64,000 nt of DNA, from the NCBI RefSeq assembly GCF_013377855.1, contig NZ_JABXYJ010000004.1, positions 62,001 through 126,000 on the forward strand. The letters are read 5' to 3'. The DNA is from Cognatundibacterium oligocarboniphilum (GTDB lineage: Bacteria > Pseudomonadota > Gammaproteobacteria > Burkholderiales > Burkholderiaceae_D). A program made the position numbers and the translations under genes. The notes under the pieces are model-generated. The model worked only from the letters and a program-made list of their open reading frames with translations. It ran no database searches and was not told where the DNA came from. Shown one piece after another: positions 6,410 to 25,781 of this stretch (positions are counted from its first letter, which is position 1; every line of letters starts with the position of its first letter).

Positions 6410-6518
6410 GACCGACCAGCCTGTTCCGGATTTTTTCAAATCAATCCTGTCTCCACAGATACTCCCCCCACTTTTTTCCAAAATCAGTCTGATATCAAGA
6501 TTTAACAAGATCATTTTT

Positions 6519-6544: not shown

Positions 6545-6699
6545 CCCTGATAGTCATTCGCGTAAAAAGCGGGCACCGCAACATCTGCCATTGTCCTGCC
6601 CACTGTCGCCGCACGGCATGAAACCGGACAAAATCCGCTACAATCCCGCTTCCACCACATGTCGCGCATTGCCCGTCTCAGGACAAACGCGGCACGCAC

Positions 6700-6746
6700 C
6701 CGGGGACGACCCCGGCGCATCTCGTCATTCGCAGGGACGACCCTGC
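6700..6746 (+). promoter_or_regulatory. Guanidine-II (mini-ykkC) riboswitch
   Basis: Two perfect 6-bp GC-rich stems each close an ACGA tetraloop: CCGGGG-ACGA-CCCCGG at 6700-6715 and GCAGGG-ACGA-CCCTGC at 6731-6746, with a 15-nt linker. Paired hairpins with ACGR loops just upstream of a start codon define the guanidine-II riboswitch class. The second hairpin ends 25 bp before the ATG of a Gdx/SugE exporter, the class's best-known target gene. Guanidinium binding is expected to expose the ribosome binding site and switch the exporter on. Confidence 0.93.
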
Positions 6747-6771
6747 AGCCATCACCTTTCGGAATCCCATC

Positions 6772-7092
6772 ATGAACTGGATCACTCTGCTTACCGCCGG
6801 TCTGTTTGAAATCGTCTGGGCCATCGGCCTGAAATACACCGACAGCTTTTCCCGTTTCTGGCCCAGCGCCTTGACACTGGCTGCTATGGCAGTGAGTGTG
6901 GGCTTACTCGGAATCGCCATGAAAGGCCTGCCGGTCGGCACCGCCTATGCGGTCTGGGTCGGCGTTGGCGCAGTTGGCACCGCGATCATGGGCATCATCC
7001 TGTTCGGCGAACCCGCCAGCCCGGCGCGCCTGCTCAGCCTCGCCCTGATCGTCTGCGGCATCATCGGCCTGAAACTTGCCACGCCTGCCTGA
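6772..7092 (+). CDS. gdx: Guanidinium exporter Gdx (SugE), SMR family
   Basis: A 106-residue four-helix small multidrug resistance protein. The essential proton/substrate glutamate is Glu13 (LFEIVWA), followed by [15 protein letters not shown], which is typical of the Gdx/SugE subtype and not EmrE. Later helices carry [19 protein letters not shown] and the GE of LFGEP. The protein should sit in the inner membrane as an antiparallel dimer exchanging guanidinium for protons. The guanidine-II riboswitch directly upstream independently supports the substrate assignment. Confidence 0.95.
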
Positions 7093-11674: not shown

Positions 11675-12376
11675 TTGTGCTGCGCGGCCAGCAGCTCTGT
11701 TCATGCGATGACCCCGTTGCAAATTATCATCCTGGACGACACACGCCCCAGCTCTGTTGCTGCCAGAGAAGTATTACAGCAGGCTTATCAGCGCCTGAAG
11801 ATACCGGTGCAATTCATCGAGGTTCCGGCGAAACGGGGTATCGGTCTGTTGCAGGCAGGAAGCGCGGATGGCGTGACTTTCCGTCTGACGCTGGAACCCG
11901 ACTACGATATGCTGCCGGTGAAAGTGCCGGTGACCAGTGAAGAACTGATGGTTTATACCAGCGGAAAAAATTTTGAAGTGCATGGTTTTGCCAGCCTGCA
12001 GCCTTATCTGACCGGTTATGTCAACGGTGTGCTGATCATTGCCGAGCACACCGGTAATCTGCGCACAGACACCGCCCCGTCGATTGATTCGCTGTTCCGC
12101 AAATTAGCCGCCGGACGGACAGATATCGCTCTGGAATCGCGCCAGAGCTTATGCCATGTCATCCGCCTCGGCTTAACGCAGATTGTGATGCTGGAACCAT
12201 CGCTGATGCAGCGTCCTGGTTTTCATGTACTGCACAAAAAATACCAGACATTGATTCCGAAACTGGAAGTCGTGTTATCGCAAATGGAAAAACAGGGAGA
12301 AATCCGCAAAATCAACGAAGCAGCTATCCAGTCTTATCTGTCGCACTGCCATCAGGGGTTGCAAGCCCGAAGCTGA
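11675..12376 (+). CDS. Periplasmic substrate-binding-like protein, possibly disrupted at its 5' end
   Basis: The ~220-residue body (from MTPLQIIILDD) looks like a family-3 solute-binding protein, with a two-lobe pattern and a closing EIRKINEAAIQSYLSHC helix. A natural start appears to be ATG 11615, giving an Arg/Leu-rich signal peptide ending SSVHA just before MTPLQ. However, an in-frame TGA lies at 11666-11668, inside that signal peptide. Translation could begin only at a TTG at 11675 or the ATG at 11708, neither leaving a complete signal. So the gene is either a recent nonsense pseudogene or encodes a cytoplasmic form. Its stop TGA (12374-12376) lies inside the left inverted repeat of the island. 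Confidence 0.6.
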   Translation: MCCAASSSVHAMTPLQIIILDDTRPSSVAAREVLQQAYQRLKIPVQFIEVPAKRGIGLLQAGSADGVTFRLTLEPDYDMLPVKVPVTSEELMVYTSGKNFEVHGFASLQPYLTGYVNGVLIIAEHTGNLRTDTAPSIDSLFRKLAAGRTDIALESRQSLCHVIRLGLTQIVMLEPSLMQRPGFHVLHKKYQTLIPKLEVVLSQMEKQGEIRKINEAAIQSYLSHCHQGLQARS

Positions 12377-12411
12377 TTTTTTTCCGACGCCGGATGCTAC
12401 GGTACGCCGAT
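12373..12411 (+). repeat. Left inverted repeat of the metallophore island
   Basis: CTGATTTTTTTCCGACGC (12373-12390), then 11 bases, then GTACGCCG (12402-12409). The inverted copy at 25244-25281 has the same two blocks in the same order, differing by one T in the T-run and one base in spacing. The pair faces inward and encloses the whole iron operon. No target-site duplication is visible immediately outside. Confidence 0.6.
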
Positions 12412-12418
12412 AGCGGAC

Positions 12419-12545
12419 TCAGCGCACTCGCCCGACAAAGACCATCCCCAGTTGCCGCGCCCGCTTTTCCTCCTCCATATGCAGGTAGACCCGAGGTGGT
12501 CGACACCGAGCACGGCGACAGGGCACGGCTGCGCTCGACGATCAC
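12419..12545 (-). pseudogene. Tyrosine recombinase C-terminus, frameshifted remnant
   Basis: On the minus strand one frame reads ...CSVSTTSG and the next reads VYLHMEEEKRARQLGM...VR then stop at 12421-12419. Removing one G joins them into SVSTTSVYLHMEEEKRARQL, which matches the end of phage-type or transposon tyrosine recombinases (LGH.S..TT..YLH). The catalytic Tyr is the Y of VYLH. No upstream R..H motif could be recovered, so only the tail survives. It lies between the left inverted repeat and the iron operon. Confidence 0.55.
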
Positions 12546-12600
12546 CCAAAGGATCAGCCACTCGGTCCCTTGGCGGTAGGCAATCCGGGTAGGGGCGCTT

Positions 12601-13014
12601 TCAAGTCGCTTTCAGCATACATAGTTGAATTTCGGTCCGGGGCAGCACCGGCGCGAACCGGTGACGCGTCGTCTTATACGGGAAAATTCTGTTCTGCCAC
12701 AGAATAGTGCGAAAAATGCAGTCGACGCAAAACGCTTCCCCGGTGTTCCAATCCGTGACCGCGACACGCGGGTCGTCGTAGCTGAGCAGCACGCACGGCA
12801 AATGGTTCAGTCCCAACAAGGCCGCCGCCCGTATCCGGTGGTTGCCATCCATGACGATGCCGGTGCCGCCGTCAACGGGGACCGGTGTCGTCCAGATGCC
12901 CGCTTCTGAAATGACGGAAGCCAGCTTGTGTACGTCGACGTGGTCAACATCTTCCGAAGGACGGAAGAAATCGATCGGCTTGAGTGCAACGCAATAGGAG
13001 TGATGATCGGCCAT
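12601..13014 (-). CDS. SbnI-like ParB/sulfiredoxin-fold protein
   Basis: A 137-residue protein with a ParB-like N-terminal domain and the nucleotide-binding signature MDGNHRIRAA near residue 55. The closest role is SbnI of staphyloferrin B clusters and the archaeal SerK kinase, which phosphorylate free L-serine to O-phosphoserine, the substrate of SbnA. It is much shorter than S. aureus SbnI (about 250 residues), so a regulatory C-terminal part is missing. A good Shine-Dalgarno (AAGGAAAG) supports the start at 13014. It is the last gene of the minus-strand iron operon, 69 bp after the ATPase gene. The kinase role is inferred from family and context. Confidence 0.7.
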   Translation of the reverse strand: MADHHSYCVALKPIDFFRPSEDVDHVDVHKLASVISEAGIWTTPVPVDGGTGIVMDGNHRIRAAALLGLNHLPCVLLSYDDPRVAVTDWNTGEAFCVDCIFRTILWQNRIFPYKTTRHRFAPVLPRTEIQLCMLKAT

Positions 13015-13083
13015 GTTTTCTTTCCTTGGAGACGATTTCAATGACATAGATGAGGGTTTCAAATTCGTGCCAATGTCGTCCCG

Positions 13084-13920
13084 TTATCGCCCCGACGCCG
13101 TGCGCGGCCGCTGCAACGCAAAACTGGAACGCCGCGCCAGCTCGACATCGAAATGCGGTGGGGCGTCAGCCGCAATGGGCACGAAGGTGCCGTGCACGCG
13201 AAACACCTGCTCGATCAGACTGGTTCCGGCGAGTGCGTGCGGATCCCCGTCGAACACCAGGCTGCCCCGCTCAAGCAGCGAAATGCGGTCGCAAACAGAC
13301 ATTGCCTGATTCAGATCGTGGATCGCCATCACGATGGCGACACCCCTGTCGCGGCTGAGCCGATAGACGAGATCGAGTACCTCGACCTGATAACCGATAT
13401 CGAGGAAGGTGGTCGGCTCATCAAGCAGCAGGATCTGAGCCTCCTGCGCCAGTGCGGCCGAAATCCAGGCCCGCTGGCGCTCGCCGCCCGACAGTTCGGT
13501 GAGGCTACGGTCGGCAAGCCCGCTCAAGCCGGTGCATTCCAGCGCCCACCGGATCGCCTGCTCGTCGTCCGGACCATAGCCGCGGAACAAGCCGACGTGG
13601 GCGAATCTCCCCTGCCGCACCAATTGCGCGACGGTCATTTCATCGGGGGCCGTCGGCTGCTGGGGCAGATAGGCAAGGTGCCGGGCGAGTTCGCGGCGCG
13701 GCATCGCATCGACTGGCCTGCCGTCGATGGCGACGCTTCCGGCTGCCGGCCGAATCAGCCCGGCAAGCGCCTGCAGCGCCGTGCTCTTGCCGGAACCATT
13801 GGGGCCGATCAGGGCACGGATTTCGCCTTTTTCAAGAGCAAGATCAAATCCATCCAGCACCATGCGGCGGCCATAAGCGACGGATAACTGGGAACAGGTG
13901 AGCGGCATCGCAATCCTCAT
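13084..13920 (-). CDS. Iron-siderophore ABC transporter ATPase, FecE-like
   Basis: A 278-residue ABC ATPase of the FecE/FhuC type. Walker A is GPNGSGKST near residue 39, the signature is LSGGERQRA, Walker B is ILLLDEPTTFLD, and the switch His is in MAIHDLN. It powers uptake of a ferric chelate through the two permeases encoded directly upstream. The ATG at 13920 overlaps the permease stop as ATGA, indicating translational coupling; an ATG 12 bp further in is also possible. Confidence 0.93.
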   Translation of the reverse strand: MRIAMPLTCSQLSVAYGRRMVLDGFDLALEKGEIRALIGPNGSGKSTALQALAGLIRPAAGSVAIDGRPVDAMPRRELARHLAYLPQQPTAPDEMTVAQLVRQGRFAHVGLFRGYGPDDEQAIRWALECTGLSGLADRSLTELSGGERQRAWISAALAQEAQILLLDEPTTFLDIGYQVEVLDLVYRLSRDRGVAIVMAIHDLNQAMSVCDRISLLERGSLVFDGDPHALAGTSLIEQVFRVHGTFVPIAADAPPHFDVELARRSSFALQRPRTASGR

Positions 13921-14963
13921 GGGGTTTTGCGCAAGAGCGCAATCAGTACGGGAACGCCGCACAACGCTGTGACCACACCAATCGGAATCTCGTCTGCCTG
14001 GCCGGCGAGGCGGCCGACGAGATCGGCCAGCGTGACCGTGACGGCGCCGAGGGTGATCGTCAGGGGCAGGCGCAGGGCGCTGTGCCGGCCGGCAACGAAA
14101 CAGGCGAAATGGGGAACGATCAGCCCGACGAACACAATGGGGCCGACAACGCCGACCGCGCTCGATGCAAGGCAGGCGGAAAGCAACAGAACCAGCGAAA
14201 AGGCCGGGCGATAGGCAAGCCCGAAGGAGCGCGCCACCGGTGTCGAGAGGCTGAGGAGATCAAGGGGGCGGCGGATGAGCGGCAGTACGGCGAGGCCGAC
14301 GATGGTAAAGGGCAGAAGAAAAACGGCATGCCGCCAGGTGCGCGCATAAAGGCTGCCGGACAGCCATTCGAGCAGAACTTCGATCCGCGTCGATCCCCAT
14401 CCGGCAATGAGGCCGATTGCCACTGCATGCAGCACCGCGCCGACGGCGATGCCGGCGAGTGTCAGGCGCAGGGGGCCGAGATCGGCCTGCAGCGCCAGGG
14501 CATAAACGACAACGCAGGCGGCCAGTCCGCCGAGCAGGCCGATGCCCGGCAGCCAGTGCAGCGGAATTTCCGTGATCTGTGCGCTCGATCCTGGCGCGTA
14601 GGCATGAGCACCGAAGAGAAGGAACAGCGTGACGCTGAGCGTCGCTCCCTGGGAAATACCGACCAGCGACGGGTCGGCAAGTGGATTACGCGTGATGTTC
14701 TGGAGCAGGAAGCCGGCCAGGGCGAAATGGATGCCCGCCAGTACGCCAGTGGCGATTCTCGGCAAACGAATGTCGAGGATGATTGCCTGCGCCTCCGGTG
14801 ATCCATGTCCGAGCAACGTGGCGGCGACATCTCCCGGCGGCAGATCGACCACGCCGAAAAAAACGGCGAGGACGAGCGACAGTAGAAAGAGAGCGAAAGA
14901 TGCCGGCAGAAAGATCCGGGAAGAGGCCGGCCCGGCACCGGGGCGTAAAGAGTGGACTGTCAT
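13917..14963 (-). CDS. Iron-siderophore ABC permease, FecCD family
   Basis: A 348-residue inner-membrane permease of the FecCD/BtuC family. About ten hydrophobic segments are visible, with family motifs RLPRIATGVLAG, LQNITRNPLADPSLVGISQGA and VGVVGPIVFVGLIVPH. It should pair with the neighbouring permease as a heterodimer. Its ATG overlaps the previous stop and its stop overlaps the ATPase start, both by 4 bp, so the three genes are translated as a unit. Confidence 0.93.
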   Translation of the reverse strand: MTVHSLRPGAGPASSRIFLPASFALFLLSLVLAVFFGVVDLPPGDVAATLLGHGSPEAQAIILDIRLPRIATGVLAGIHFALAGFLLQNITRNPLADPSLVGISQGATLSVTLFLLFGAHAYAPGSSAQITEIPLHWLPGIGLLGGLAACVVVYALALQADLGPLRLTLAGIAVGAVLHAVAIGLIAGWGSTRIEVLLEWLSGSLYARTWRHAVFLLPFTIVGLAVLPLIRRPLDLLSLSTPVARSFGLAYRPAFSLVLLLSACLASSAVGVVGPIVFVGLIVPHFACFVAGRHSALRLPLTITLGAVTVTLADLVGRLAGQADEIPIGVVTALCGVPVLIALLRKTP

Positions 14964-16003
14964 GTTGCGGCCTCTCCCCTGAAGGCAAGGCTTTTGCTCT
15001 GGATAAGGTAGATGAAGACCGGCCCGCCAACGAGGGCTGCGACAATGCTGACCGGCAGCTCACGCGGCAGGGCTACGGTCCGGGCAACGATGTCGGCCGC
15101 GACCGTGGTGAAACCGCCGATCGTGGCGGCGAAGCCGATGGTCCAGCCCGGTCCGCCGGGTTTCAGGAACCGGGCGATATGCGGCGAGACCAGGCCGACG
15201 AAGGTGACCGGCCCGGCCACAGGGGTAACACCGGCCACCGGCAGAACAGCGAGGACGAGCAGCACCGGTTTCCAGAAGGCCAGCCGGATGCCCATGCCGG
15301 CAGCGGCTTCGTCGGAGAGCGTCATGAGGCCGATGACGCGTCGGCAGACCAGCGCTCCTGCGATGCCGGCTGCAACCCAGGGAGTCATATAGGCAAGATG
15401 CGACCATGACCGCCCCTGGAAGCCGCCCGACAACCAGAACAGCAGAGATTTCACCTGTGCGCCACTCCGCATCATGATATAGGTGGTGACGGCGGAGAGA
15501 AGCATCGATACGGAAATGCCGCCGAGCGCCAGGTGCAGCGAACGCGACCTTCCGGATGGCCCGTGGGCGATCCAAAAAGTGACGACTGCCGCAGCAAGCC
15601 CTCCCGCCATGCCGATCAACGGATAGCAGGCGGGAGAAAGCCTCGGCAGAAAGACAAAACAGAATACGATCGCGGCCACCGCGCCGGAGGAAACGCCGGT
15701 CAGCCCCGGCCCGGCAAGAGGATTGCGCGTCAGCGTCTGCAACAGAAAACCGGAAACGCCGAGACCGGCACCGCCGACGAAAGCGGCCAGACTGCGCGGC
15801 AGGCGCAGCGTCCACACGAGAATGGAATCGATCCGGTCATCGGGCGACAGCAGGATGGAGACGAGCGCCGAGGGCGTCAGCGACCGGGTACCGGTCATCA
15901 ACCCGGCGACGGCCACCAGCAGGGCACCGGCAGTCAGAGCCAGCGTCCAGCCTAACGGCCGCAGCCACGACCTTGCCGGTGCGGGTAACAAGGATGGTGT
16001 CAT
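14960..16003 (-). CDS. Iron-siderophore ABC permease, FecCD family
   Basis: A 347-residue permease, the second FecCD paralogue. Motifs RLPRSLAAFVGGAGLGVSGF, LTRNPLAGPGLTGVSSGA and VAGPVTFVGLVSPHIAR are clear. Its C-terminus carries the ELPVSIVAALVGGPVFIYL helix seen in FecD/FhuB proteins. It overlaps the binding-protein gene upstream and the other permease downstream by 4 bp each. Confidence 0.93.
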   Translation of the reverse strand: MTPSLLPAPARSWLRPLGWTLALTAGALLVAVAGLMTGTRSLTPSALVSILLSPDDRIDSILVWTLRLPRSLAAFVGGAGLGVSGFLLQTLTRNPLAGPGLTGVSSGAVAAIVFCFVFLPRLSPACYPLIGMAGGLAAAVVTFWIAHGPSGRSRSLHLALGGISVSMLLSAVTTYIMMRSGAQVKSLLFWLSGGFQGRSWSHLAYMTPWVAAGIAGALVCRRVIGLMTLSDEAAAGMGIRLAFWKPVLLVLAVLPVAGVTPVAGPVTFVGLVSPHIARFLKPGGPGWTIGFAATIGGFTTVAADIVARTVALPRELPVSIVAALVGGPVFIYLIQSKSLAFRGEAAT

Positions 16004-16977
16004 TTCTGCAACCCGGCCGGGATCAGTTTCACCGCCTCTGCGCGGACATCGACGGCCGGGAAGGTGCCGGGGTAAAGGTAGTGAGCCGCCTCGCGCAGAA
16101 CGATCTCGCGGGCGATCGGCCCGTTGGTCTCGACCCAGTGGTCGCCAACATAATGGACGCGCTTGTTCTTAACGGCAGAAAGTTGCTTCCAGATCGGGTT
16201 ATTTTCATGGGGGCGGTCCGGGCCGGAATCATAGACGAAGATCACCTCCGGGTTCTTTTCCAGCATGGACTCCAGGCTCAGTTCCGTACCGAACCGGCCG
16301 CCCTGTGTCATGGGGCCGGCAATGTTGACGCCGCCGAGCCCGATCGCAATCGAAGCGGCAGTGTTCTCGTCATGGAAGGAAAAGGGCGTGGCGCCTGCCC
16401 ACATGATCAGAAAGCGCGGATGCACGGCCTTGGGCGCCTTGTTTGCGTAATCCTGCAGATGCTGTCTGAAGGTGGCGTTGAGTTCCTTGCCGCGCTCGGG
16501 CTTGCCGAGAATCCTGGACAATTCGGTGACTTCCTTCTCGCTTTCGGAGAACAGCTCCATATTGTAGGCGACATAGGGCGCGATCTTCTCTAGGTGCTGC
16601 GCATTGGCGGCGGTATAGCGCCGCATAGCGATAACCAGATCAGGCTTAGCTTTGGACAGAAGTTCAAGATTGGGCTTGGCGCGCTGACCGAGCTGCACCA
16701 TGTCCCTGGTCAGGCCAAGCAGGAAGTCGGGCGCGCGCCCCGGCGTCAGATAGGTAGTGGCAAAGGGTTTGATACCGAGCGCCAGGGAAACATCCGCAGC
16801 CAGGTAGGAAATACCGGCGACGCGCTTCGGCGCAGCGGAAAGACGCACCGTCACGCCACGGTCGTCCCGAACCACAAAGCCCGGCTTGTCCTGCCCGCAG
16901 GCCGGTCCCGATGTCAGCGCCGCCAGCGCCACAATCGCGCTTCCTGCCGCCCATATGGTGCGAAGATGCCGCATCAC
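16000..16977 (-). CDS. Ferric-siderophore periplasmic binding protein, FecB-like
   Basis: A 325-residue class III periplasmic binding protein. The signal peptide spans roughly residues 1-28 (MRHL..., hydrophobic IVALAALTSG, near CGQ); the Cys in GPACGQ could make it a lipoprotein. Domain motifs are DDRGVTVRLSAAPKRVAGI, KPDLVIAMRRYTA and NPEVIFVYD, as in FecB/FhuD-type proteins. It delivers the ferric chelate to the two permeases. The 50-bp gap to the MATE gene upstream is the largest inside the biosynthetic-transport block, and a secondary promoter there cannot be excluded. Confidence 0.92.
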   Translation of the reverse strand: MMRHLRTIWAAGSAIVALAALTSGPACGQDKPGFVVRDDRGVTVRLSAAPKRVAGISYLAADVSLALGIKPFATTYLTPGRAPDFLLGLTRDMVQLGQRAKPNLELLSKAKPDLVIAMRRYTAANAQHLEKIAPYVAYNMELFSESEKEVTELSRILGKPERGKELNATFRQHLQDYANKAPKAVHPRFLIMWAGATPFSFHDENTAASIAIGLGGVNIAGPMTQGGRFGTELSLESMLEKNPEVIFVYDSGPDRPHENNPIWKQLSAVKNKRVHYVGDHWVETNGPIAREIVLREAAHYLYPGTFPAVDVRAEAVKLIPAGLQK

Positions 16978-17027
16978 TTATTTTCTCCAAAATATATTTG
17001 TTGTCACGATTGTTTCCGCCCCGGCAT

Positions 17028-18449
17028 TCATCGCGATGCCAGGCGCACTGCTGCCGGTTCGTCTTTCTGCTGCGGCTTCAGAACCGCCTGCAGGTCCGCG
17101 GCGAAGCGCCAGCCGAGCAGAGCGCTTGTGACAGCGAATCCAAGGCAGAGACCAAACCAGATGCCGTAACTTTTCCAGCCCAACCAGTAGCCGCAGACGG
17201 CCATGGCGGGGATACCGATCAGCCAGTAGCCGATGAGGGTGTTGGTGAGCCCGGCTTTGGTGTTGCCAAGTCCGCGCAGCAGACCGACACATATGTTCTG
17301 CGCGCCCTTGCAGTACTGATGCACGATGGCAAACCACAGCAAGCCGCCCGCCGCCGCCAGCACAGCCGGGTCTGCATCCGTTCCGAGAAAAGGCCGCAGC
17401 ACGATGCCCGGCACGGCCACATAGGCGATGGCAACGAGAGTCATGACGGCAAAGCTGATGGTAAAGCTGCGCGCCGCGATAGCACCGATCTTCCCCATTT
17501 CCCCCTTGCCAGTCGCACGACTCACCAGAATGGAAGAGCCGTGCGACAGCCCGATATTGAGCTGGTAGACGATGTACGCGAGCTGGTTGACGATGTTGGA
17601 GGCGGCCAGAACCACCGGCCCGAAGGTGCCCATGAAGACGGCGGCAATCGAGGTGATCGCAGCCTCCGAGCCATAGGTCAGCGTGATCGGCGTGCCCATC
17701 CTGGCGATGCGTGCAACCGTTTCCCGTCTGGCGCACCAACCGTTCAGGGCGATCAGCGCACCCAGTTTTTGATCGCGCAGCACGGTGCGGAGATAGACGA
17801 GAAAGGTCCACATATTGACCGCTGTGGTCGCCAGCCCGATGCCGGCGAGCCCTAGCTGCGGCAAGCCGAACCAGCCATAGATGAAGACAGCGTTGAGAAA
17901 GGCGTTGACAGCGATGGACACCAACGTAACCATCAGCAACGAGCCGGCGCGGCGCATGCCCACCGCGAATTGACGCAGGACATTGAGCCAGAGCATGGGC
18001 AGCAGACCCGGCGCCAGCGCCAGCATGATCGGCTTGGCCAGGGCGATCACCGCTGCATCCTGCCCCAGGAGAGGCAACAAATGGCCGAGACCGACCAGCA
18101 GCGTGCCGGCGCCAAAGGCAACGATGGTCGCCAGCAGCAGGGCAGCCCGCAACAGATCGCGGATTTCCTCGCGGGCAGGTTCATCCAGATCGGCGCTGCT
18201 GGTCCGTGTCTCGCCCTGTCCGGCGGCGGACGCGATGAGATTGCCGAGTCCCGTCACCATGCCGACGCACATGGTCCGCAGCTGATTGTAGAGCAGGAGG
18301 GCAAGTCCGCCGGCCGCGACGGCTTGCACGCCGATCAGGCCCATCATCAGAAGGTCGGTACTCGTCAGCGCGACCTGGGCGAACTGGATGCCCGCAATGG
18401 GAGCGGCGAGCGCGATGATTTCCCGATACTGTCGAAATTCCATGGTCAT
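17028..18449 (-). CDS. MATE-family efflux transporter
   Basis: A 473-residue membrane protein with about twelve helices in two similar halves, typical of MATE antiporters. Examples are LAAPIAGIQFAQVALTSTD in helix 1 and the equivalent MGTPITLTYGSEAAI at the start of the second half. It is placed 3 bp from the SbnA-like gene inside the metallophore operon, so it is most likely the exporter of the product. Staphyloferrin B clusters normally use an MFS exporter (SbnD) here. The C-terminal ~20 residues are charged and cytoplasmic. Confidence 0.92.
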   Translation of the reverse strand: MTMEFRQYREIIALAAPIAGIQFAQVALTSTDLLMMGLIGVQAVAAGGLALLLYNQLRTMCVGMVTGLGNLIASAAGQGETRTSSADLDEPAREEIRDLLRAALLLATIVAFGAGTLLVGLGHLLPLLGQDAAVIALAKPIMLALAPGLLPMLWLNVLRQFAVGMRRAGSLLMVTLVSIAVNAFLNAVFIYGWFGLPQLGLAGIGLATTAVNMWTFLVYLRTVLRDQKLGALIALNGWCARRETVARIARMGTPITLTYGSEAAITSIAAVFMGTFGPVVLAASNIVNQLAYIVYQLNIGLSHGSSILVSRATGKGEMGKIGAIAARSFTISFAVMTLVAIAYVAVPGIVLRPFLGTDADPAVLAAAGGLLWFAIVHQYCKGAQNICVGLLRGLGNTKAGLTNTLIGYWLIGIPAMAVCGYWLGWKSYGIWFGLCLGFAVTSALLGWRFAADLQAVLKPQQKDEPAAVRLASR

Positions 18450-18452
18450 TCG

Positions 18453-19523
18453 TTATCCTCCCGCCGCCAGATTGCACGACGGGCGCGATGCAAGGTGTAT
18501 CGAGTCCCGATAAGCATCGAACAGCCTGTGAAGACGCTGATGCGCCAGTTCGTCGAGGAGGTGGCGCTCGCGCAGCCACTCGTCGTCGTAGACGCTGTCG
18601 AGATATTTCTCTCCCGCGTCGCAGACCAATACCACCATGGTGCTGTTCGGTTCGACCAGCGCCAGCCGTTTCAGCGCGACATGAATCGCCGCGCCGGACG
18701 TGCCGCCGACCAGAATGCCGGTCCGGCGCGCAACGACGCGGGCGGCGGCAAAGGCGTCGATGTCGCTGACGGTCAGCCCTTCGTCGATCAGCGTGTGATC
18801 GACGTTCGGCCCGACGGTGAACCCGCCCGGTGCGCCGGCTCCGGTCTGCCAATACTTGCCGGGGGGACCGCCGAAGATGATGGATCCCAAAGGTTCGACG
18901 CCGATGCTGGTGACCAGGGAACCCAGGTGGCGCAGCTCCTTGACCGTGCCGCACATGGTGCCGCCGGTACCGACCGTGCCAACCAGATAATCGAGATCCG
19001 TGCCGAGATCGCCGAGCAGCTCGGCGGCAAGCCCGGCATAACCCTTGTTGTTGTTCGGGTTGGTGTGCTGATCCGGCCAGAATGCGCCGGTCTTCGCGAC
19101 GATTTCTTCAGCCAGCCGGCGCCGCGCGATCGTACTCGGCCCATCGCCCCTGCTCTCGGCAAAGACCAGATTGACGCCCATTGCCTGCATCGCGCGGAGC
19201 TTATCGCGTGCCGCATGATGGTCGACGATGGCCGTGAACTTGTAGCCGCGCTCGATGGCGACGAGGGCGATTCCCTGCCCGGTATTGCCCGAGGTGGGTT
19301 CGACGATATGACCTCCCGGCTTGAGCCTGCCGTCGCGTTCGGCGGCGAGGATCATCTCGCGGGCCATCCGGACTTTGCAGGAGCCGGTAGGGTTGAATTG
19401 TTCCAGCTTCAGCAGCAGGCGGCTGCCCGATCCGGTACGGGCCAACTCATACAACGGCGTCCCGCCAATCAGGTCGGAACATGCCATTACAATCCGTTCA
19501 GCAGACTGATGTTTGGGGATCAT
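18453..19523 (-). CDS. 2,3-diaminopropionate biosynthesis enzyme, SbnA-like
   Basis: A 356-residue fold-type II PLP enzyme of the cysteine synthase family. The PLP lysine is Lys50 (NPTGSCK), followed by the phosphate loop SGNTGQG near residue 78 and GTGGTMCGT near 184. SbnA condenses O-phospho-L-serine with glutamate to give ACEGA, the precursor of L-2,3-diaminopropionate. Here the usual K-D/I-R after the PLP lysine reads CKVR. The start at 19523 overlaps the upstream stop as ATGA with GGAGA before it; a longer upstream frame runs inside the SbnH-like gene and is not real. The SbnA rather than cysteine synthase role is inferred from the adjacent SbnB- and SbnH-like genes. Confidence 0.87.
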   Translation of the reverse strand: MIPKHQSAERIVMACSDLIGGTPLYELARTGSGSRLLLKLEQFNPTGSCKVRMAREMILAAERDGRLKPGGHIVEPTSGNTGQGIALVAIERGYKFTAIVDHHAARDKLRAMQAMGVNLVFAESRGDGPSTIARRRLAEEIVAKTGAFWPDQHTNPNNNKGYAGLAAELLGDLGTDLDYLVGTVGTGGTMCGTVKELRHLGSLVTSIGVEPLGSIIFGGPPGKYWQTGAGAPGGFTVGPNVDHTLIDEGLTVSDIDAFAAARVVARRTGILVGGTSGAAIHVALKRLALVEPNSTMVVLVCDAGEKYLDSVYDDEWLRERHLLDELAHQRLHRLFDAYRDSIHLASRPSCNLAAGG

Positions 19524-20869
19524 TGGTTTATTCTCCAGGTGAAGCGTCCGTCGTGTTGGTTCACGACGATTTTGGGCGGCAGAGCGAGCTGGTGGAACTC
19601 GCTCTCGTTCTTGTCCATCTGATAACCAGCGGTATTGGGGTAAACGATCAGGTCGCCGTGGCGGGGTACGGCGGGGAACGTGATCTTGCGCCACGTCAGT
19701 ACGTCGTACTCCATGCAACTGGAACCGCCGATCACCGCGCACACCGGATTTTGCGGACGCGCCGGTCCGCGCTGCACCAGGAAGGGAGCCGGCAAAAACT
19801 CGCTGTTTTTCCACTGCTCCGATAGGCTCATGGAGAGGCCCGCGACAGTCACGATCCCGTGCTCCGCATTGCGCTTGAAGCCTTGCACGGGAAAGACTGT
19901 CATTCCCGCGCCATCGAGCAGCGCCCGTCCCGGTTCCAGATAGAGCTGCACATCGGCAGCGATGAGCCTGGCTGCCAGCGTTCCGCCTCCTGTTTCAGTT
20001 ATCGTCTGCAAGATCGCATCCAGCATCGCCGCGCCGGTGGGCGACTGGTAATAAGGATAGAAATGGCTGAAGCTCTTTCCCGCATGGAACTGGGCGGGAT
20101 CGAGCCTTTCCTTGAAGACGCGCCAATCGTCCTCTTCGACGTAACTGCAGGCAAAACCACCACCGATGGAGACCGACGAGCAGGGAAAGCCCTGGCCGCG
20201 CGCTGCCACGCACCGGTCGATCAGCGCGGCAGCCAGCTCGGCGCGCGGCGCCACCGCGTAGCCGTCGAGATGAAAGGAAAAACCGTCCATCAAAATGTGC
20301 CGGCGGGCATCCGCGCAGCGCTGAAGCGCCGCGAGAAGATCGTCCTGATTCAGCCCGAAGCGGCTATTGGGGCTGTTAGGTGGAAGCACGCGCAGCAGGA
20401 TCCGCAAGACGTTTTCCGTGTTCGATCCTGCTGCAACGGCAATCGCGCGCTCCAGTTCGTCCAGGGCATCGATGGCAACGATCGCGCCGTGGCGGCAGGC
20501 CAGCCATAACAGATCGTCGCTCTTGGCCGCGCCCGTGACGCCGATGTCTTCTCCGCGGATGCCGTTGGCAAGCGCATGGACGAACTCGGGTTTACTGGCG
20601 ACATCGACCGCGCCGCCGAGCCTTGCCACTTCGCGCAACCACGCTCCTGCCTTGTTGGCCTTCTTGCCGAAATAGACTTGCCCCGCGATGTTGCGGTCCC
20701 GCAGAACACGCTGAAAGTCCGACAGATTCCCGGCAAAACTCTCGGGGTGAACGAGGTGGAAGGGGCCGTCCACCGCGCGGGTAATCTGGTCGAGCAGCGC
20801 GATGTCCTGTCGGGCGTCAACGGCCCAGGCCCGTTCGCAGGCGCGCATCGAGTTGGTGGTCAATTCCAT
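19520..20869 (-). CDS. PLP-dependent decarboxylase, SbnH/LysA-like
   Basis: A 449-residue fold-type III enzyme of the ornithine/diaminopimelate decarboxylase family. The PLP lysine lies in VYFGKKAN (about Lys70), the phosphate-binding glycines in SIGGGFACSYV, EPGRALLDG near residue 310, and the active-site Cys in GGSSCMEYDVL. In staphyloferrin B synthesis SbnH decarboxylates a citryl-diaminopropionate intermediate made by a NIS synthetase, but no such synthetase is encoded here. The substrate could instead be diaminopropionate, ACEGA or another Dap conjugate. It overlaps the SbnB-like gene by 10 bp and the SbnA-like gene by 4 bp. Confidence 0.87.
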   Translation of the reverse strand: MELTTNSMRACERAWAVDARQDIALLDQITRAVDGPFHLVHPESFAGNLSDFQRVLRDRNIAGQVYFGKKANKAGAWLREVARLGGAVDVASKPEFVHALANGIRGEDIGVTGAAKSDDLLWLACRHGAIVAIDALDELERAIAVAAGSNTENVLRILLRVLPPNSPNSRFGLNQDDLLAALQRCADARRHILMDGFSFHLDGYAVAPRAELAAALIDRCVAARGQGFPCSSVSIGGGFACSYVEEDDWRVFKERLDPAQFHAGKSFSHFYPYYQSPTGAAMLDAILQTITETGGGTLAARLIAADVQLYLEPGRALLDGAGMTVFPVQGFKRNAEHGIVTVAGLSMSLSEQWKNSEFLPAPFLVQRGPARPQNPVCAVIGGSSCMEYDVLTWRKITFPAVPRHGDLIVYPNTAGYQMDKNESEFHQLALPPKIVVNQHDGRFTWRINQ

Positions 20870-21855
20870 AGTTCGATCCGCTTGCCGCGGCCTGCGGCAA
20901 TGCCTCTGGTTGCGAGGGCATGCGCGACGGGAATATCCGTGATGATCATTCCGCTCGAGAATGCGAACACCCTATCCTCTTGCGATCGTCGCCCCGGCTT
21001 GCGGCCGGCCACGATGTCGGGCAGCTCGGCATCGATACGGGCTTCGTCGCCGGAGCCGGCGAGCCGCTTTCCGGTGACGCCCATCTGCCCTTCGTTCGTC
21101 GCGATCGCGTAGTCGGCGTCCAGCAGTGCGCCGGCCTCCACACCCTTGCTGGCGACCGAAATGAGCAAGCCGCCGGGTGGCAGCCACTTGGTCTGGATCT
21201 TGGGATGAGCGGCGCGTCCCGAAGCCACGACGACGATATCGGATTGGGCGACAGCAGCGGGCACGTCCTTCACCAGTTCGATCTCGCGATCGGGAAAATA
21301 CCTGGCAAAGGTCGAAAGACTTGCGGCGATCCCGTCAGGATGTGTGCCGAACAGGCGTAGGGTTTTGAGGGAAGGCAGCGCGGTCAGGAGATAGGGCAGC
21401 GTGTTGATGCCCTGCGCTCCGGTGCCGATCATCAACGCCGATTGGACATTCTCCTTGGCGCAGTGCTTGGCGATGATCGCCGTCGTTGCCGGCGTGCGGG
21501 AGCCCCCGACACGGTGGCAATCCATGAACACGAACGGTAATCCGGTTGTGTCGTCATAGAGGCTGATCGTCGTATAGTATTTTTCTGCGCTATCGGTGCC
21601 CTGGCGATAGGAGGTCTTGAAGCCGAGCTGCTGGAGAGCGCCGTCGTAACCGAGCATCGAATAAGAAACCGCGTCCCGCTGCGCATCGGGAAGTTCCATC
21701 ATGAGTTTCGTCGGGCAACGGGACTCTCCGTTGGCGTAGAACAAATAAGCATCCTCTACGAGCCGGATCACGTCCGCCGGAGGAAGCTCGATGTCAACCA
21801 GATCCGAACGGCTGAGAATATGGACGGCAGGTGTACGCATATATGACTTGGTCAT
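20860..21855 (-). CDS. 2,3-diaminopropionate biosynthesis dehydrogenase, SbnB-like
   Basis: A 331-residue member of the ornithine cyclodeaminase / mu-crystallin family. Residues 60-75 (KLMMELPD), GGSRTPATTA and the NAD-binding MIGTGAQG (near residue 142) are SbnB-like. SbnB oxidatively cleaves ACEGA to L-2,3-diaminopropionate and 2-oxoglutarate using NAD+. A good ribosome site (AAAGGAA) precedes the ATG. With the SbnI- and SbnA-like proteins it forms a complete serine-to-Dap route. Opine-dehydrogenase-like or imine-reducing activity cannot be excluded by sequence. Confidence 0.87.
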   Translation of the reverse strand: MTKSYMRTPAVHILSRSDLVDIELPPADVIRLVEDAYLFYANGESRCPTKLMMELPDAQRDAVSYSMLGYDGALQQLGFKTSYRQGTDSAEKYYTTISLYDDTTGLPFVFMDCHRVGGSRTPATTAIIAKHCAKENVQSALMIGTGAQGINTLPYLLTALPSLKTLRLFGTHPDGIAASLSTFARYFPDREIELVKDVPAAVAQSDIVVVASGRAAHPKIQTKWLPPGGLLISVASKGVEAGALLDADYAIATNEGQMGVTGKRLAGSGDEARIDAELPDIVAGRKPGRRSQEDRVFAFSSGMIITDIPVAHALATRGIAAGRGKRIELWN

Positions 21856-21875
21856 GTCAATTCCTTTCGATGTCG

Positions 21876-24107
21876 TTAAAGATCAGCCGATACCGTGATA
21901 CTAATGGTCCGCGGGGCGCCAACACTCATGTAGCCCGCCGTGTTCGACTCCCAGTACTTGCGGTTAAACAGGTTCGCGATGTTCAGATTGAGCGAGACGG
22001 GGGTGTCAGCGACCTTGGTGGAATACCGCGCGCCTGCATCGAAGCGGGTCCAGCTCGGCATCTGCACCTTGTTCGCCGCATCCAGGAATCGGGAGCCGGT
22101 GTGGAGGGTGCGACCGGTCAACGTCAGCCCAGGTATGGATGGGGCATCCCATTCAAGGCCAAGATTGAATTGAACCTTCGGCACTCCCACGGCCTGGTTG
22201 CCGTCAGTGCTGCCACCTGCGGTCTTCGTCAACTTGGGGTCCATCACGGTCACGCCGCTGAGCAAGCGCAGGTTGCGTGTCAACTCGCCAAAGCCCATGA
22301 TTTCGATCCCCCGGTGGCGTTGCTCGCCGTCTACGCCAAACACGCCCGTGCTCGGGTTCGTGATGCCATTCGGCGTGGAAATCTGAAACGCGCCTGCGGT
22401 AAGCGCCAAGGTGCCGAAGTCGTATTTCGTGCCAATTTCGACCTGCTTCGTCCTGTAGGGCGCGAATATCTGTCCTGCATTCACACTGGTTCCTGGGGCC
22501 GTAGGTCCTTGGGTGAGGCCCTCGACATAGCTCCCGTAGAAGGCCAGTGACTTGTTCGGGCGCAGGGTCACGCCCACCATGGGCGTGGTTGCACTCTGGT
22601 CGTACTGGGAAGTGATCGCGCCGGTCGTTCCTGAAAAGTTATCGACCTTGATCTTTTGGTGCCTGATGCCACCAGAGACCTGTAGGAAGCCGTCCGCGAA
22701 AGAGGCGACGTCGGCGATGGCGATCCCCGACAGCGAGGTTTCGGATGCGCGTTTCTTCGAGAAGGAGGACAAGGGAGACGCAATGGCTGTCGGCTGCGCC
22801 AACAGGACAGGCGCGTAAATGTTCGTCAGGAAGCTGGCGTACGATGTTTTCCCCAAGTCTTGATCCAGGCTGATACTGCTCGCCGCGATGCTCAAGTTGT
22901 GGTCAACCGCTCCAGTCCTGAATTTGCTCCTGATTCCGGCTTCACTCGATTTCGACCCATAGTCGGCGTCTTGGGATACCGACGCCACGCGCCCGCCACC
23001 GTTGGCATCGAGGATTTGGGTGCCGTTCTGATAGTCCAACCTGCGTTGATTGAACTGCGCGGCGCCGGTGGCTGCGAACAGGACGATGCGATCGGTGAGG
23101 TCGTATTCGGCCCGCACCATCCCAGTCGTACCGCGCGTCTTCGAGTAATCGAACGACTGGCTGGTATTGATGCCGGGGGTGGGAACGGAAGGAAGGCCGA
23201 CTCCCGAGGCCAGAAAGTAGCCACGCTCGGGAGCATGGATGGTGTCGGCCTGATACAGCAGATCGGCAAATAGCCGAAGCCGTTGGCCTTGGTAGTCCAG
23301 CCCCAGGGACATGTCCCCACTGTTCGCCTTTTGCCGATCGATCGGCGGACGTCCATCTCGATAAGCAACGTTCATACGTATGCCGATCTGTTTGTCCTCA
23401 CCCAGGCGGCGAGCCAAATCCAGATGACTGCCGAAACGGGAATCGGATGCGTATTCCGCAGTCAGACGGGTCAACGGATCGGCACCCGCACGCTTGGTCA
23501 CGACGTTGATGTTGCCCCCCGTGCTGCCGCGCGGTGGCGTGCCGTTAAGTAGCGCGCTCGGCCCCTTGAGCAGTTCGATGCGCTCCAGAGCGTCCGTGCT
23601 CACCATGTGCTTGGGAAGAAGGCCATACAGACCGTTCAAGGCCACGTCGTCGTTCGTAACCCGAAAGCCGCGGATCGTAAAGGCTTCGTACAGATTGTCC
23701 CGACCTACCACGTCACGGACGGATGGGTCGACCACGGTTAATAGATCTCCCACAGACTTTGCTTGCTGATCGCGTATGGCCTGCTCCGTATAGCTGGTCA
23801 TGCTGAAGGGAACGTCCATAAAATCTACATTGCCAAGCATGCCAAGGCTTCCACCGCGCGCAACTTGACCGCCGGAATAAGGCAGAGAGAGCGCGTCAGG
23901 CCGTCTCGCAGTGACCGTCACTACGGGGAGAGTTGTTACATCTCCGGCACCCTCTTGTTTTGGCGCGGTTTGGGCGTGACCGTGACTCATCACTCCGGTG
24001 GTCAATAGTCCCGCGAAGGCCATACGCAAGGCGGAAGCCAGCGGCTTGGATAGCATGGGCGCAGAGGCGCCCGTAGAGCGGGAAGCAGAAGTAGTCTTGT
24101 GCAGCAC
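21876..24107 (-). CDS. TonB-dependent ferric siderophore receptor, FhuE/FpvA-like
   Basis: A 743-residue outer-membrane receptor. After a long N-terminus the signal core is ALRMAFAGLLTTGVMSHGHAQ. The plug domain has VPFSMTSYTEQAIRDQQAKSVGDLL, FTIRGF, ERIELLKGPSALLNG and GGNINVVTKR. The 22-strand barrel ends in SITVSADL. There is no N-terminal STN signalling extension, so it is not a FecA-type surface-signalling receptor. A GTG at 24107 with AAAGGAA ~8 bp upstream was chosen; a GTG at 24131 lacks a good site. It lies between hemP and the biosynthetic genes and is expected to import the ferric product of this operon. Confidence 0.93.
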   Translation of the reverse strand: MLHKTTSASRSTGASAPMLSKPLASALRMAFAGLLTTGVMSHGHAQTAPKQEGAGDVTTLPVVTVTARRPDALSLPYSGGQVARGGSLGMLGNVDFMDVPFSMTSYTEQAIRDQQAKSVGDLLTVVDPSVRDVVGRDNLYEAFTIRGFRVTNDDVALNGLYGLLPKHMVSTDALERIELLKGPSALLNGTPPRGSTGGNINVVTKRAGADPLTRLTAEYASDSRFGSHLDLARRLGEDKQIGIRMNVAYRDGRPPIDRQKANSGDMSLGLDYQGQRLRLFADLLYQADTIHAPERGYFLASGVGLPSVPTPGINTSQSFDYSKTRGTTGMVRAEYDLTDRIVLFAATGAAQFNQRRLDYQNGTQILDANGGGRVASVSQDADYGSKSSEAGIRSKFRTGAVDHNLSIAASSISLDQDLGKTSYASFLTNIYAPVLLAQPTAIASPLSSFSKKRASETSLSGIAIADVASFADGFLQVSGGIRHQKIKVDNFSGTTGAITSQYDQSATTPMVGVTLRPNKSLAFYGSYVEGLTQGPTAPGTSVNAGQIFAPYRTKQVEIGTKYDFGTLALTAGAFQISTPNGITNPSTGVFGVDGEQRHRGIEIMGFGELTRNLRLLSGVTVMDPKLTKTAGGSTDGNQAVGVPKVQFNLGLEWDAPSIPGLTLTGRTLHTGSRFLDAANKVQMPSWTRFDAGARYSTKVADTPVSLNLNIANLFNRKYWESNTAGYMSVGAPRTISITVSADL

Positions 24108-24170
24108 AGTGTTCCTTTCTTTTGGATGCACTGGCTGGCGACAGCAGGCTTGTGCGACGATCGGTTGGTT

Positions 24171-24344
24171 TTAATTGGTGAGGATCAACTTTCCATTCAG
24201 CGTCAGTCGTAGCCGGTAAACTCTCCCGTCATGCACGATCTTCAATTCGCGCCGGTGGCCGGGAAGTTCCGCGCTCGTGATCCGTCCACATGCAGGACCA
24301 CCAGCAATTGCATGATCAGCCGCCGGCTGGCACTTATCGGGCAT
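24171..24344 (-). CDS. hemP: HemP/HmuP-family protein
   Basis: A 57-residue protein whose C-terminal half (RRELKIVHDGRVYRLRLTLNGKLILTN) is the HemP signature, with IVHDG..Y.LRLT..GKLILTK almost complete. HemP/HmuP proteins are Fur-regulated and act as activators or partners of TonB-receptor gene expression. It is the first gene of the operon, 63 bp before the receptor. An ATG at 24380 would add 12 residues, but it lies at the expected transcription start of the Fur-box promoter, so the ATG at 24344 is preferred. No strong Shine-Dalgarno is visible for either. Confidence 0.75.
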   Translation of the reverse strand: MPDKCQPAADHAIAGGPACGRITSAELPGHRRELKIVHDGRVYRLRLTLNGKLILTN

Positions 24345-24386
24345 TTCGTTTGGAGCGGATAATCGAGAAAATAAGCGCATGCACAA

Positions 24387-24416
24387 ATTATAAATAAGAA
24401 TCATTATTATTTGCAA
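24387..24416 (-). promoter_or_regulatory. Sigma70 promoter with embedded Fur box
   Basis: On the minus strand TTGCAA (24416-24411) is followed after 18 bp by a perfect TATAAT (24392-24387). Between and overlapping them, 24390-24408 matches the 19-bp Fur consensus at 13 positions, including nine consecutive bases AATCATTAT. Iron-loaded Fur bound here would block RNA polymerase and so repress the hemP-receptor-biosynthesis-transport operon. Confidence 0.8.
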
Positions 24417-24570
24417 CAATATTGTTCTCTATTTTCACCGCTGCACATAAATGCCATGCTTAGTATCATTTAAAAATGGATTGCGCGATTCGAGTGACAG
24501 CGCCGTGCCCGTATCAATGTGAACTGCTAATGCCTGGAAACACGAACAGAAGTACTTTTAATCAAAATAT

Positions 24571-25030
24571 ATGATGCGCAAACCAATGGATATTCCGCAA
24601 GAGCTGCGGGCATCCGGTCTGAAGGCGACTCTGCCGCGCTTGCGCATTTTGCAGTTTTCCCATGAAGGCAAAAACAAACCCTTGGCTGCCGAGAATGTGT
24701 ATCGCTCCTTGCTGGATGAGAAAATCGATGTCGGCCTGGCGACCATCTACCGGGGGGGCTGGTGCAATTTGCGAAAGCGGAAATCCTGATGCGCCGTCAG
24801 TTTGAATCCGGCCCCGGTGTCTTTGAATTGAATAAGGGCAGCCATCATGATCACTTGATCTGTACGGCATACGGCACAAGGTCGAGGAGTTTGTCGATAT
24901 TAAAATCGGGCGTCGTCAGGAAGAAGTTGCGAAAGAACGTGGCTATGCATTGCATCAACATTCACTGTCTTTGTGTGGTATTTGTGCGAGCCGCGGACAA
25001 GGGAAAGTCAAGACGGACACAGCCTGTTGA
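24571..25030 (+). pseudogene. fur: Ferric uptake regulator fur, frameshifted pseudogene
   Basis: The N-terminal DNA-binding domain is intact ([36 protein letters not shown]). At about 24753 two extra bases in a G-run shift the frame. Sequence then continues as [36 protein letters not shown]. At about 24880 a second +2 insertion shifts again, ending [33 protein letters not shown] to TGA at 25028-25030. The second Cys of the first CxxC zinc site is Tyr (ICTAY). Intact Fur is ~140-150 residues. The gene is divergent from the Fur-box operon and is presumably non-functional. A working Fur must be elsewhere if the box is used. Confidence 0.88.
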
Positions 25031-25243
25031 AGGACTTTCTGACATGATGCCGCACGCCGGACAAATAGATCGTGCAGCGAGAGATGCCAACTTCTATATC
25101 CCGATTCCTGATTCTCAGCAGCCACCCTCGTGGCCGGATCATCGGGCATCGTATCGCCCCAAATAATTAGAACACTGAGTCACCAGGATTGGGACATAGT
25201 AGATGGGAGTGACCTTCGTCGGCCGGGCACGTTAAATCAGACA

Positions 25244-25281
25244 CCGGCGTACTGCAACGCCCCAGCGTCGGAAAAAATCAG
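25244..25281 (-). repeat. Right inverted repeat of the metallophore island
   Basis: Read on the minus strand: CTGATTTTTTCCGACGC (25281-25265), 12 bases, GTACGCCG (25252-25245). This is the inverted partner of 12373-12409. Inside it, 25031-25243 holds no gene I can recognise; the stretch may be transposon-end sequence. Confidence 0.6.
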
Positions 25282-25313
25282 TTCTGGACTTATATCCCCA
25301 CCAGGAACAGTCA

Positions 25314-25340
25314 TAAAAAAAGCCGCACAGAGCACGGCTT
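25314..25340 (-). terminator. Rho-independent terminator for the DUF2798-like gene
   Basis: On the minus strand AAGCCG pairs with CGGCTT around a 9-nt loop and is followed by seven T in total. It lies about 50 bp after the stop of the minus-strand gene at 25389. Confidence 0.8.
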
Positions 25341-25388
25341 CAATCTAGCAATTGCAATGTGGTGGTTGCCGTCTCCGCAGTATTGTTT

Positions 25389-25781
25389 TCAGTAACGACT
25401 TGCAGACAAAGATTTGACTTGTAAACCAGCGATCCGGGTCGCTTCTGCAGCAGCATGCGGGATATCGCTGACCATCAGTCCCTGACGAACCGGCAAAGCA
25501 ATGGGCACAACCGGCTGACTCATGCTGCGGCTGACGTGGTTCAACATAGGACGCAGCATATACGCGACCGGAAACGCGATGGGCCAGGTGGTCAGCCACG
25601 CTTCCATCCAGGCACCGAAAAAATCGTTGCTGAAACCCAGCCACAGCAGGCGCATGACGGCCGTTGCGACCAGCGTGATCACGCCGGTACTCAGCATGGT
25701 CGGCAGCATGGATGCCAGGCTTTTGGAACCTGCAATCTGACGCGGTATCTTCTGTGGCAGAACAGAAACATAAGCTGACAT
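25389..25781 (-). CDS. DUF2798-type membrane protein
   Basis: A 130-residue protein with two hydrophobic segments, LPTMLSTGVITLVATAVMRLLWLGF and the segment ending FGAWMEAWLTTWPIAFPVAYML, which together match the DUF2798 pattern of small bacterial inner-membrane proteins. The C-terminal ~45 residues are polar. The start at 25781 has a GGAG site 8-10 bp upstream. Function of the family is unknown. It is followed by its own terminator and is oriented like the unknown gene upstream. Confidence 0.75.
   Translation of the reverse strand: MSAYVSVLPQKIPRQIAGSKSLASMLPTMLSTGVITLVATAVMRLLWLGFSNDFFGAWMEAWLTTWPIAFPVAYMLRPMLNHVSRSMSQPVVPIALPVRQGLMVSDIPHAAAEATRIAGLQVKSLSASRY

Follow-up and report, generated by a model that had tools for sequence, protein, structure and literature searches.

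A probable operon for a synthetase-free, EDDS-type aminopolycarboxylate metallophore, likely acquired by horizontal transfer, in Cognatundibacterium oligocarboniphilum

Introduction

Ethylenediamine-disuccinate (EDDS), described as a biodegradable substitute for ethylenediaminetetraacetate (EDTA) (PMC9252823), arises from a pathway described as different from both nonribosomal peptide synthetase (NRPS) assembly and NRPS-independent siderophore (NIS) synthesis (PMC4993170). It is reported to be under Zur control (PMC6103462, PMC9252823). EDDS and ethylenediaminesuccinic acid hydroxyarginine (EDHA) represent a known but little-understood class of aminopolycarboxylic acid metallophores. An operon within a 64,000-nucleotide stretch of Cognatundibacterium oligocarboniphilum DNA (the window) appears to belong to this class; its probable product is a small EDTA-like metal chelator that the cell would export and take up again.

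A rule for the class exists in antiSMASH 7 (PMC10320115). A trio of cysteine synthase, diaminopimelate decarboxylase and cyclodeaminase is reported as an aminopolycarboxylic-acid cluster in Rhodococcus (PMC13206832), and the window carries the trio as described there, judged by gene content rather than by an antiSMASH run. Other sources give a Nocardia cluster labelled with an iron regulator and listing a MATE protein (PMC10920908), an EDDS-like cluster in Corynebacterium striatum (PMC10486106) and predicted EDHA clusters or class members in Burkholderia (PMC10702961, PMC12981146). With such a rule and such members reported, the novelty implied by the initial annotation of this DNA is less well supported. 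Among the matches listed from one literature library, searched with chosen terms, none gave an account of the SbnA/decarboxylase/SbnB enzymology of EDDS, and none assigned genes to classic rhizobactin. What is new here is a proteobacterial clade without a hydroxylase, with its own importer and weak iron signals, an empty site in congeners, and a comparison of modules.

Results

Gene content of the operon

The operon occupies positions 12601–24380 and comprises eleven minus-strand genes with gaps or overlaps of at most about 50 nt, so that the tight packing noted initially was found for every gene. Nine genes score above Pfam cut-offs, and hemP is named separately by PF10636. The genes run in the following order:

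24171–24380, minus strand: hemP-like small gene (PF10636, 52.6 bits; start at 24380 or 24344)
21876–24131, minus strand: TonB-dependent siderophore receptor (TIGR01783, 341 bits; PF00593, PF07715)
20860–21855, minus strand: SbnB-like NAD-dependent imine reductase/dehydrogenase of the OCD/mu-crystallin family (PF02423, 102 bits)
19520–20869, minus strand: Y4yA-family, LysA-like pyridoxal phosphate (PLP) decarboxylase (PF02784, 60.6 bits)
18453–19523, minus strand: SbnA-like PLP beta-replacement enzyme of the PALP/cysteine synthase family (PF00291, 219 bits)
17028–18449, minus strand: MATE exporter (PF01554; TIGR00797, 161.7 bits, above cut-off)
16000–16977, minus strand: FecB/FhuD-type periplasmic binding protein (PF01497, 85 bits)
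14960–16003, minus strand: FecCD-type permease 1 (PF01032, 271 bits)
13917–14963, minus strand: FecCD-type permease 2 (PF01032, 262 bits)
13084–13962, minus strand: FecE/FhuC-type ATPase (PF00005, 114 bits; best NCBIfam match PRK11231 (FecE), 243.7 bits against a cut-off of 375)
12601–13062, minus strand: SbnI/SerK-like ParB-fold protein, possibly supplying O-phosphoserine (weak matches only)

Two in-frame ATGs are available for hemP, at 24380 and at 24344, the end given initially; the latter is favoured because of the predicted −10 position. The SbnA, SbnB and SbnI labels of the initial annotation stand as family-level resemblances. The SbnB-like protein reaches 95.3 bits against TIGR03944 (cut-off 327) and the SbnA-like protein 223.7 bits against TIGR03945 (cut-off 350), so neither label holds at the specific level, and the SbnI-like match is weak. 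The SbnI-like protein is 66% identical to its homologue in L112, one of the rhizobactin-like clusters described below, and 32–40% identical to homologues in proteobacterial cassettes.

A conserved cassette without a synthetase

A contig scan with the decarboxylase returned 103 relatives; the best 80 serve here as named loci. Their gene content was taken from tblastn matches and record annotations, as a first neighbourhood clustering had picked antisense open reading frames in GC-rich loci; one genome, G067 (L114), had no match to the operon proteins and was dropped. The SbnB, decarboxylase, SbnA and MATE genes are contiguous, in that order, in 64 of the 80 loci, including Rhizobium, Nocardia and Amycolatopsis. 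Eight further loci have SbnB, decarboxylase and MATE without the intervening SbnA, and the last eight are arranged otherwise or cut. Among matches covering more than 80% of the query, the proteins of 12 proteobacterial loci are 69–86% (SbnB), 68–78% (decarboxylase), 71–83% (SbnA) and 66–75% (MATE) identical to those of the window; the corresponding values in actinobacterial loci are 44–77%, 46–63%, 33–71% and 47–68%. Catalytic motifs are kept across the family: decarboxylase K70 in 80/82 proteins and C385, D389, E312, G314 and R315 in 82/82, the PLP lysine K51 of the SbnA-like enzyme in 82/82, and G144 and G146 of the SbnB-like enzyme in 75/75. The decarboxylase also occurs in 85 of 72,556 plasmid records (E 1e-30 or better), five regions of which were read; homologues in plasmid records are annotated as Y4yA family, alanine racemase or amino acid decarboxylase.

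Some loci show variations of their own. In six Mycobacterium loci (L058, L061, L066, L074, L092 and L094) a divergent SbnA-like gene (33–35% identity) lies upstream of SbnB, and L061 has an LpqS-like copper-homeostasis gene near the cassette. An Opp/Nik-type importer stands beside the cassette in L046:4056–5663, with a NikA/CntA-like binding protein, and in L035:3650–7179, where it is additional to a Fec-type importer.

The operon had been described as lacking NIS synthetase and NRPS genes, and this extends to the genome: neither PF04183 (IucA/IucC) nor PF00668 (Condensation) finds a match in the organism's own assembly (completeness 100, 34 contigs), in which other ligases, for example ATP-grasp enzymes or EDDS lyase, were not searched for. 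Assembly without NIS or NRPS enzymes, as in the EDDS/EDHA class, is thus matched as far as these two domains are concerned. PF04183 was also surveyed in 13 genomes reached through named cassette loci chosen from the 80 (11 proteobacterial, 2 Amycolatopsis), and is missing from all 13. Six further genomes were included in that survey: G209 (a congener), G027 and G117 have the domain, and G000, G099 and G239 do not. Condensation domains were found in 10 of the 13 cassette genomes examined for them and therefore do not follow the cassette.

A truncated staphyloferrin B cluster was considered and rejected, given that the cassette is kept in 64/80 loci and that IucA/IucC is missing from 13/13 sampled genomes. 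Ordinary duplicates of CysK and LysA were likewise rejected, since the genome encodes a separate LysA (387 bits) and two CysK/CysM-type proteins (436 and 388 bits), all above cut-off. The trio also travels as a unit, and the refuting case named initially, that these are an ordinary cysteine synthase and cyclodeaminase, finds no support. The congener G209, which is without this decarboxylase, has two IucA/IucC matches (G209:C13:110511–114187), which suggests that members of the genus may exchange siderophore systems.

Rhizobactin-like clusters share the decarboxylase and SbnA-like enzyme

The siderophore rhizobactin, described in 1984–85 (cited in PMC7676072), is given as a combination of alanine, lysine and malic acid with ethylenediamine (PMC7676072). 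Four relatives, L112:7198–19715 (G027), L113 (G117), L142 and L143, combine a Y4yA-family decarboxylase and an SbnA-like enzyme, which they share with the window, with an octopine/nopaline dehydrogenase and IucA/IucC, which they do not. SbnB has no match in any of these four stretches, and the opine-type dehydrogenase, next to the IucA/IucC gene, stands in its place. Conversely, no octopine dehydrogenase is found among the window's operon genes scanned, and its genome has no PF04183. A TonB receptor, an SbnI/ParB-like gene and Fec-type genes are each shared in three of the four clusters, and the window's receptor is 41–44% identical to those of L112, L113 and L142. The exporter differs, being of the MFS type in the three clusters where it was read (L112, L142 and L143) and a MATE protein in the window. 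This gene content fits candidate rhizobactin clusters. As no SbnB is at hand in them to release diaminopropionate (Dap), the decarboxylase plausibly works on the adduct made by the SbnA-like enzyme. On Sinorhizobium fredii pSF25509a the cluster lies between nopX and nopL.

Structure models and a proposed route

The model of the SbnB-like protein (pLDDT 90.8) has a pyrroline-2-carboxylate reductase as its nearest neighbour; SbnB ranks 6th, the Dap-forming CmnK 22nd and iminosuccinate reductase 23rd. As these neighbours include imine reductases as well as SbnB and CmnK, the fold alone does not select reduction over oxidation. For the decarboxylase (model pLDDT 89.1), diaminopimelate decarboxylases are the closest structures, and SbnH chains follow at ranks 35 and 39; the earlier term "SbnH-type" is therefore correct as to fold and loose as a label.

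From gene content and these models we infer the substrate, order of steps, product and metal as follows. O-phosphoserine would be supplied by the SbnI-like protein or by central metabolism. The SbnA-like enzyme would couple an amino acid, in all likelihood aspartate, through its amino group to C3 of O-phosphoserine, and the decarboxylase would strip the serine-derived carboxylate from the adduct, giving an N-(2-aminoethyl) amino acid that provides the ethylenediamine arm. The SbnB-like enzyme would then carry out a reductive coupling of this amine with a 2-oxo acid, for example oxaloacetate, to give [S,S]-EDDS or a close relative. Export would fall to the MATE protein, and the TonB receptor and Fec-type importer would return the metal complex, probably of iron under Fur. 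Free Dap is probably not released along this route.

The initial annotation proposed a near-complete route to free Dap. In a full pathway of this kind, the SbnA- and SbnB-like enzymes would release L-Dap, as they do for staphyloferrin B, the decarboxylase would convert it to ethylenediamine, and a ligase or lyase encoded elsewhere would assemble the chelator. An EDDS lyase exists in Chelativorans. A lyase of this type has been used preparatively in one published paper. The family-level resemblance to SbnA and SbnB, the SbnI-like gene and the ranks of SbnB and CmnK among the structural neighbours all speak for release of Dap. However, the scores lie far under the SbnA and SbnB cut-offs, the organism's genome lacks IucA/IucC and Condensation domains, as do those of two other cassette carriers, and all four rhizobactin-like relatives use the decarboxylase and SbnA-like enzyme with no SbnB match in the stretch. 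We therefore consider free Dap an unlikely intermediate and the earlier proposal less well supported. Of the two alternatives offered initially for the missing synthetase, synthesis of an EDDS-like aminopolycarboxylate by just the SbnA-like, SbnB-like and decarboxylase enzymes is better supported than a synthetase elsewhere in the genome, where the IucA/IucC and NRPS Condensation domains searched for, among the possible kinds of ligase, gave none.

Placement among relatives and the hydroxylase-bearing subtype

Of the 82 rows that include a decarboxylase protein, the 74 whose SbnB, decarboxylase and MATE were acceptable in length entered a tree built from these three proteins (SbnA was not used). 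The tree comes from a quick search with SH-aLRT support only and no bootstrap, and the long branches L111 and L090 are unsure. The window falls inside an 11-row proteobacterial clade (SH-aLRT 100), whose nearest neighbours are 14 Nocardia rows (98), followed by 17 rows that include Amycolatopsis loci with Zur-like boxes (95).

A VioC/GntD-like (arginine-hydroxylase-like) gene occurs in 11 of the 88 sequences searched, namely a nine-row Nocardia clade, L089 and L111, a distribution that fits the name EDHA; family scans covered L099, L089 and L111. An EDHA-type siderophore, with hydroxyarginine and succinate on ethylenediamine, would place the window's product in the same class, and an EDHA cluster is reported in Burkholderia (PMC10702961). 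Moreover, the Burkholderiales locus L111:2492–15183 (G099) has an EDHA-type gene set, with the class genes and the hydroxylase between receptor and SbnB. Against this stands the absence of a hydroxylase match in the window and in the organism's own genome (with G099 positive as control). The nine hydroxylase-bearing Nocardia rows also lie far from the window in the tree.

A further comparison used alignment columns that separate the two groups. These columns compare the 9 hydroxylase-clade Nocardia rows with 69 (decarboxylase), 61 (SbnA) and 64 (SbnB) others, omitting L089 and L111–L113 and, for SbnA, rows with a divergent or separate SbnA. The window, itself a member of the non-hydroxylase group, has that group's residue at 53 of 53 columns, and L111 sides with the hydroxylase clade at 27 of 53; the columns may reflect descent rather than function. 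An EDHA product is accordingly the least likely of the alternatives and very improbable for the window. Within the decarboxylase, the hydroxylase clade and L111 have F, S and S in place of K354, Y388 and K420. We hypothesize that these residues could read an acidic side chain; both lysines sit in low-confidence loops of the model (351–354 and 418–426).

Homologues on Ti plasmids

Agrobacterium Ti plasmids (L144:7560–18504 and L040) carry SbnB, decarboxylase and SbnA homologues that are 68–71% identical to those of the window, and an SbnI-like homologue at 39%. They adjoin an Opp-type importer, an RpiR-type regulator and a sugar isomerase-like gene, and L144 also has a phosphoenolpyruvate mutase gene. 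The trait could be opine-like or a metallophore. The MATE gene is missing from these plasmid loci, and together with their neighbours this recalls a catabolic system, in which the dehydrogenase, PLP enzyme and decarboxylase would degrade an imported aminopolycarboxylate or opine. For the window such a role is highly unlikely, because a MATE gene adjoins the cassette there and in 72 of the 80 loci, IdeR-like boxes precede actinobacterial cassettes, and the EDDS precedent is biosynthetic.

Regulation and metal

One promoter candidate lies upstream of hemP:

24387–24416, minus strand: predicted sigma-70 promoter TTGCAA-18-TATAAT (10/12), overlapped by a Fur-like box (13/19)

It is the top-scoring promoter-like site of the region 12300–25400, in which six were found (shuffle mean 4.2). 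Fur-like matches start at 24390 and 24393, next to hemP, and equal scores occur elsewhere in the window. Iron is weakly indicated by three features: the overlap of promoter and Fur-like box, the hemP gene and the Fec-type importer.

Among 72 related loci, 10 have Zur-like boxes (at least 12/15) no more than 350 nt from SbnB, with 0–1 in each of five shuffled sets, and IdeR-like boxes (at least 15/19) lie within 150 nt of actinobacterial cassettes in 11, with zero in five shuffled sets. The loci with Zur-like boxes include the A. keratiniphila group (L080, L082, L086, L087 and L091). As EDDS is itself reported to be under Zur control, this Amycolatopsis group probably represents aes clusters. 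Irr-like boxes (11/14) in L031, L032 and L033 were not used, as they had no shuffle control and the window reaches 11/14 elsewhere.

Origin of the operon

The decarboxylase had no match in the congeners G209 and G239 in a first survey. A site comparison then covered eight stretches fetched from 20 congeners searched. The operon is absent from all eight, each of which has the DUF2798 and LysR genes; the phosphoenolpyruvate carboxykinase (PEPCK) gene is in place in seven, and the eighth contig begins after it. The distance between PEPCK and DUF2798 is about 0.2–0.9 kb in six congeners (one with an SBP gene between), and L140 has 3.1 kb of other sequence there. The sole match to an operon protein in these stretches is a receptor match of 24% in L137, about 8 kb away. 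GC content per kb is 59–66% across the operon and 50–57% in most flanking bins, with the bin 6000–6999 at 59.8%. The empty site, the GC contrast and the identities to rhizobial loci point to acquisition by horizontal transfer as the probable origin.

Discussion

The conserved cassette, the lack of IucA/IucC and Condensation domains and the paired export and import genes make an EDDS-type aminopolycarboxylate metallophore, assembled without a synthetase, the likely product of this operon, which probably arrived by horizontal transfer. Several observations weigh against this interpretation. The genome search covered two synthetase domains and not other ligases. Most cassette genomes tested do have Condensation domains, and those with neither domain number three, namely the organism's own, L034 (Rhizobium herbae) and L035, the completeness of the latter two being unstated. 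SbnB and the Dap-forming CmnK are themselves fold neighbours of the SbnB-like protein, the SbnI-like protein scores only 25.8 bits against SerK (cut-off 380) and 16.6 against ParB_N (cut-off 26.3), and the Ti-plasmid homologues are without MATE. The link to EDDS runs through Amycolatopsis relatives and their Zur-like boxes, not through the A. japonicum aes sequence. As to the metal, the Fur-like box is not significant alone, a score of 13/19 being reached in 36 of 300 region shuffles and in 33 of 1264 other 250-nt tiles, and related cassettes carry either IdeR-like or Zur-like boxes, which gives no choice between iron and zinc for the window.

The comparison with rhizobactin-like and EDHA-type loci suggests a broader scheme, to which we give an even chance of being right. 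The SbnA-like enzyme, Y4yA decarboxylase and an imine reductase may form an interchangeable "ethylenediamine bridge" module that acts on amino-acid nitrogen and never releases Dap. The SbnB-like enzyme alone would lead to EDDS, with the window as a proteobacterial, iron-linked EDDS maker; an added arginine hydroxylase would lead to EDHA, and an opine dehydrogenase with an NIS synthetase to rhizobactin, as in the L112, L113, L142 and L143 type. The comparison of modules also points to candidate genes for rhizobactin. Being compact, proteobacterial and equipped with both importer and exporter, the operon offers a clean system for working out the EDDS route, and comparison with the hydroxylase and opine-dehydrogenase variants makes the order of the enzymes, with or without free Dap, directly testable.

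Known metallophore systems resemble the window to different degrees. Neither the nicotianamine-synthase-like CntL nor the CntM-type opine dehydrogenase of staphylopine/pseudopaline-type systems is found among the operon genes scanned, the rest of the genome not having been searched for them. The staphyloferrin B (sbn) cluster shares family-level SbnA, SbnB and SbnI resemblance and the SbnH fold, whereas its NIS synthetases SbnC, SbnE and SbnF have no PF04183 counterpart in the organism's genome. The EDHA clusters reported in Streptomyces, Nocardia and Burkholderia are of the same class as the window. Their Burkholderiales representative L111 likewise has receptor, SbnB, decarboxylase, SbnA, MATE and Fec-type importer genes on one strand, but differs in its VioC/GntD-like hydroxylase, and its core proteins are 42–52% identical to those of the window. 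The [S,S]-EDDS (aes) system of Amycolatopsis japonicum follows a pathway described as neither NRPS nor NIS (PMC4993170), like that proposed here. A homologous SbnB-decarboxylase-SbnA-MATE cassette occurs in A. keratiniphila (L082) and its kin at 57–68% identity, the comparison being with these relatives and not with the aes sequences themselves. Relative to aes, which is Zur-controlled as reported, the window adds a receptor, hemP, a Fec-type importer, an SbnI-like gene and an iron-type promoter candidate.

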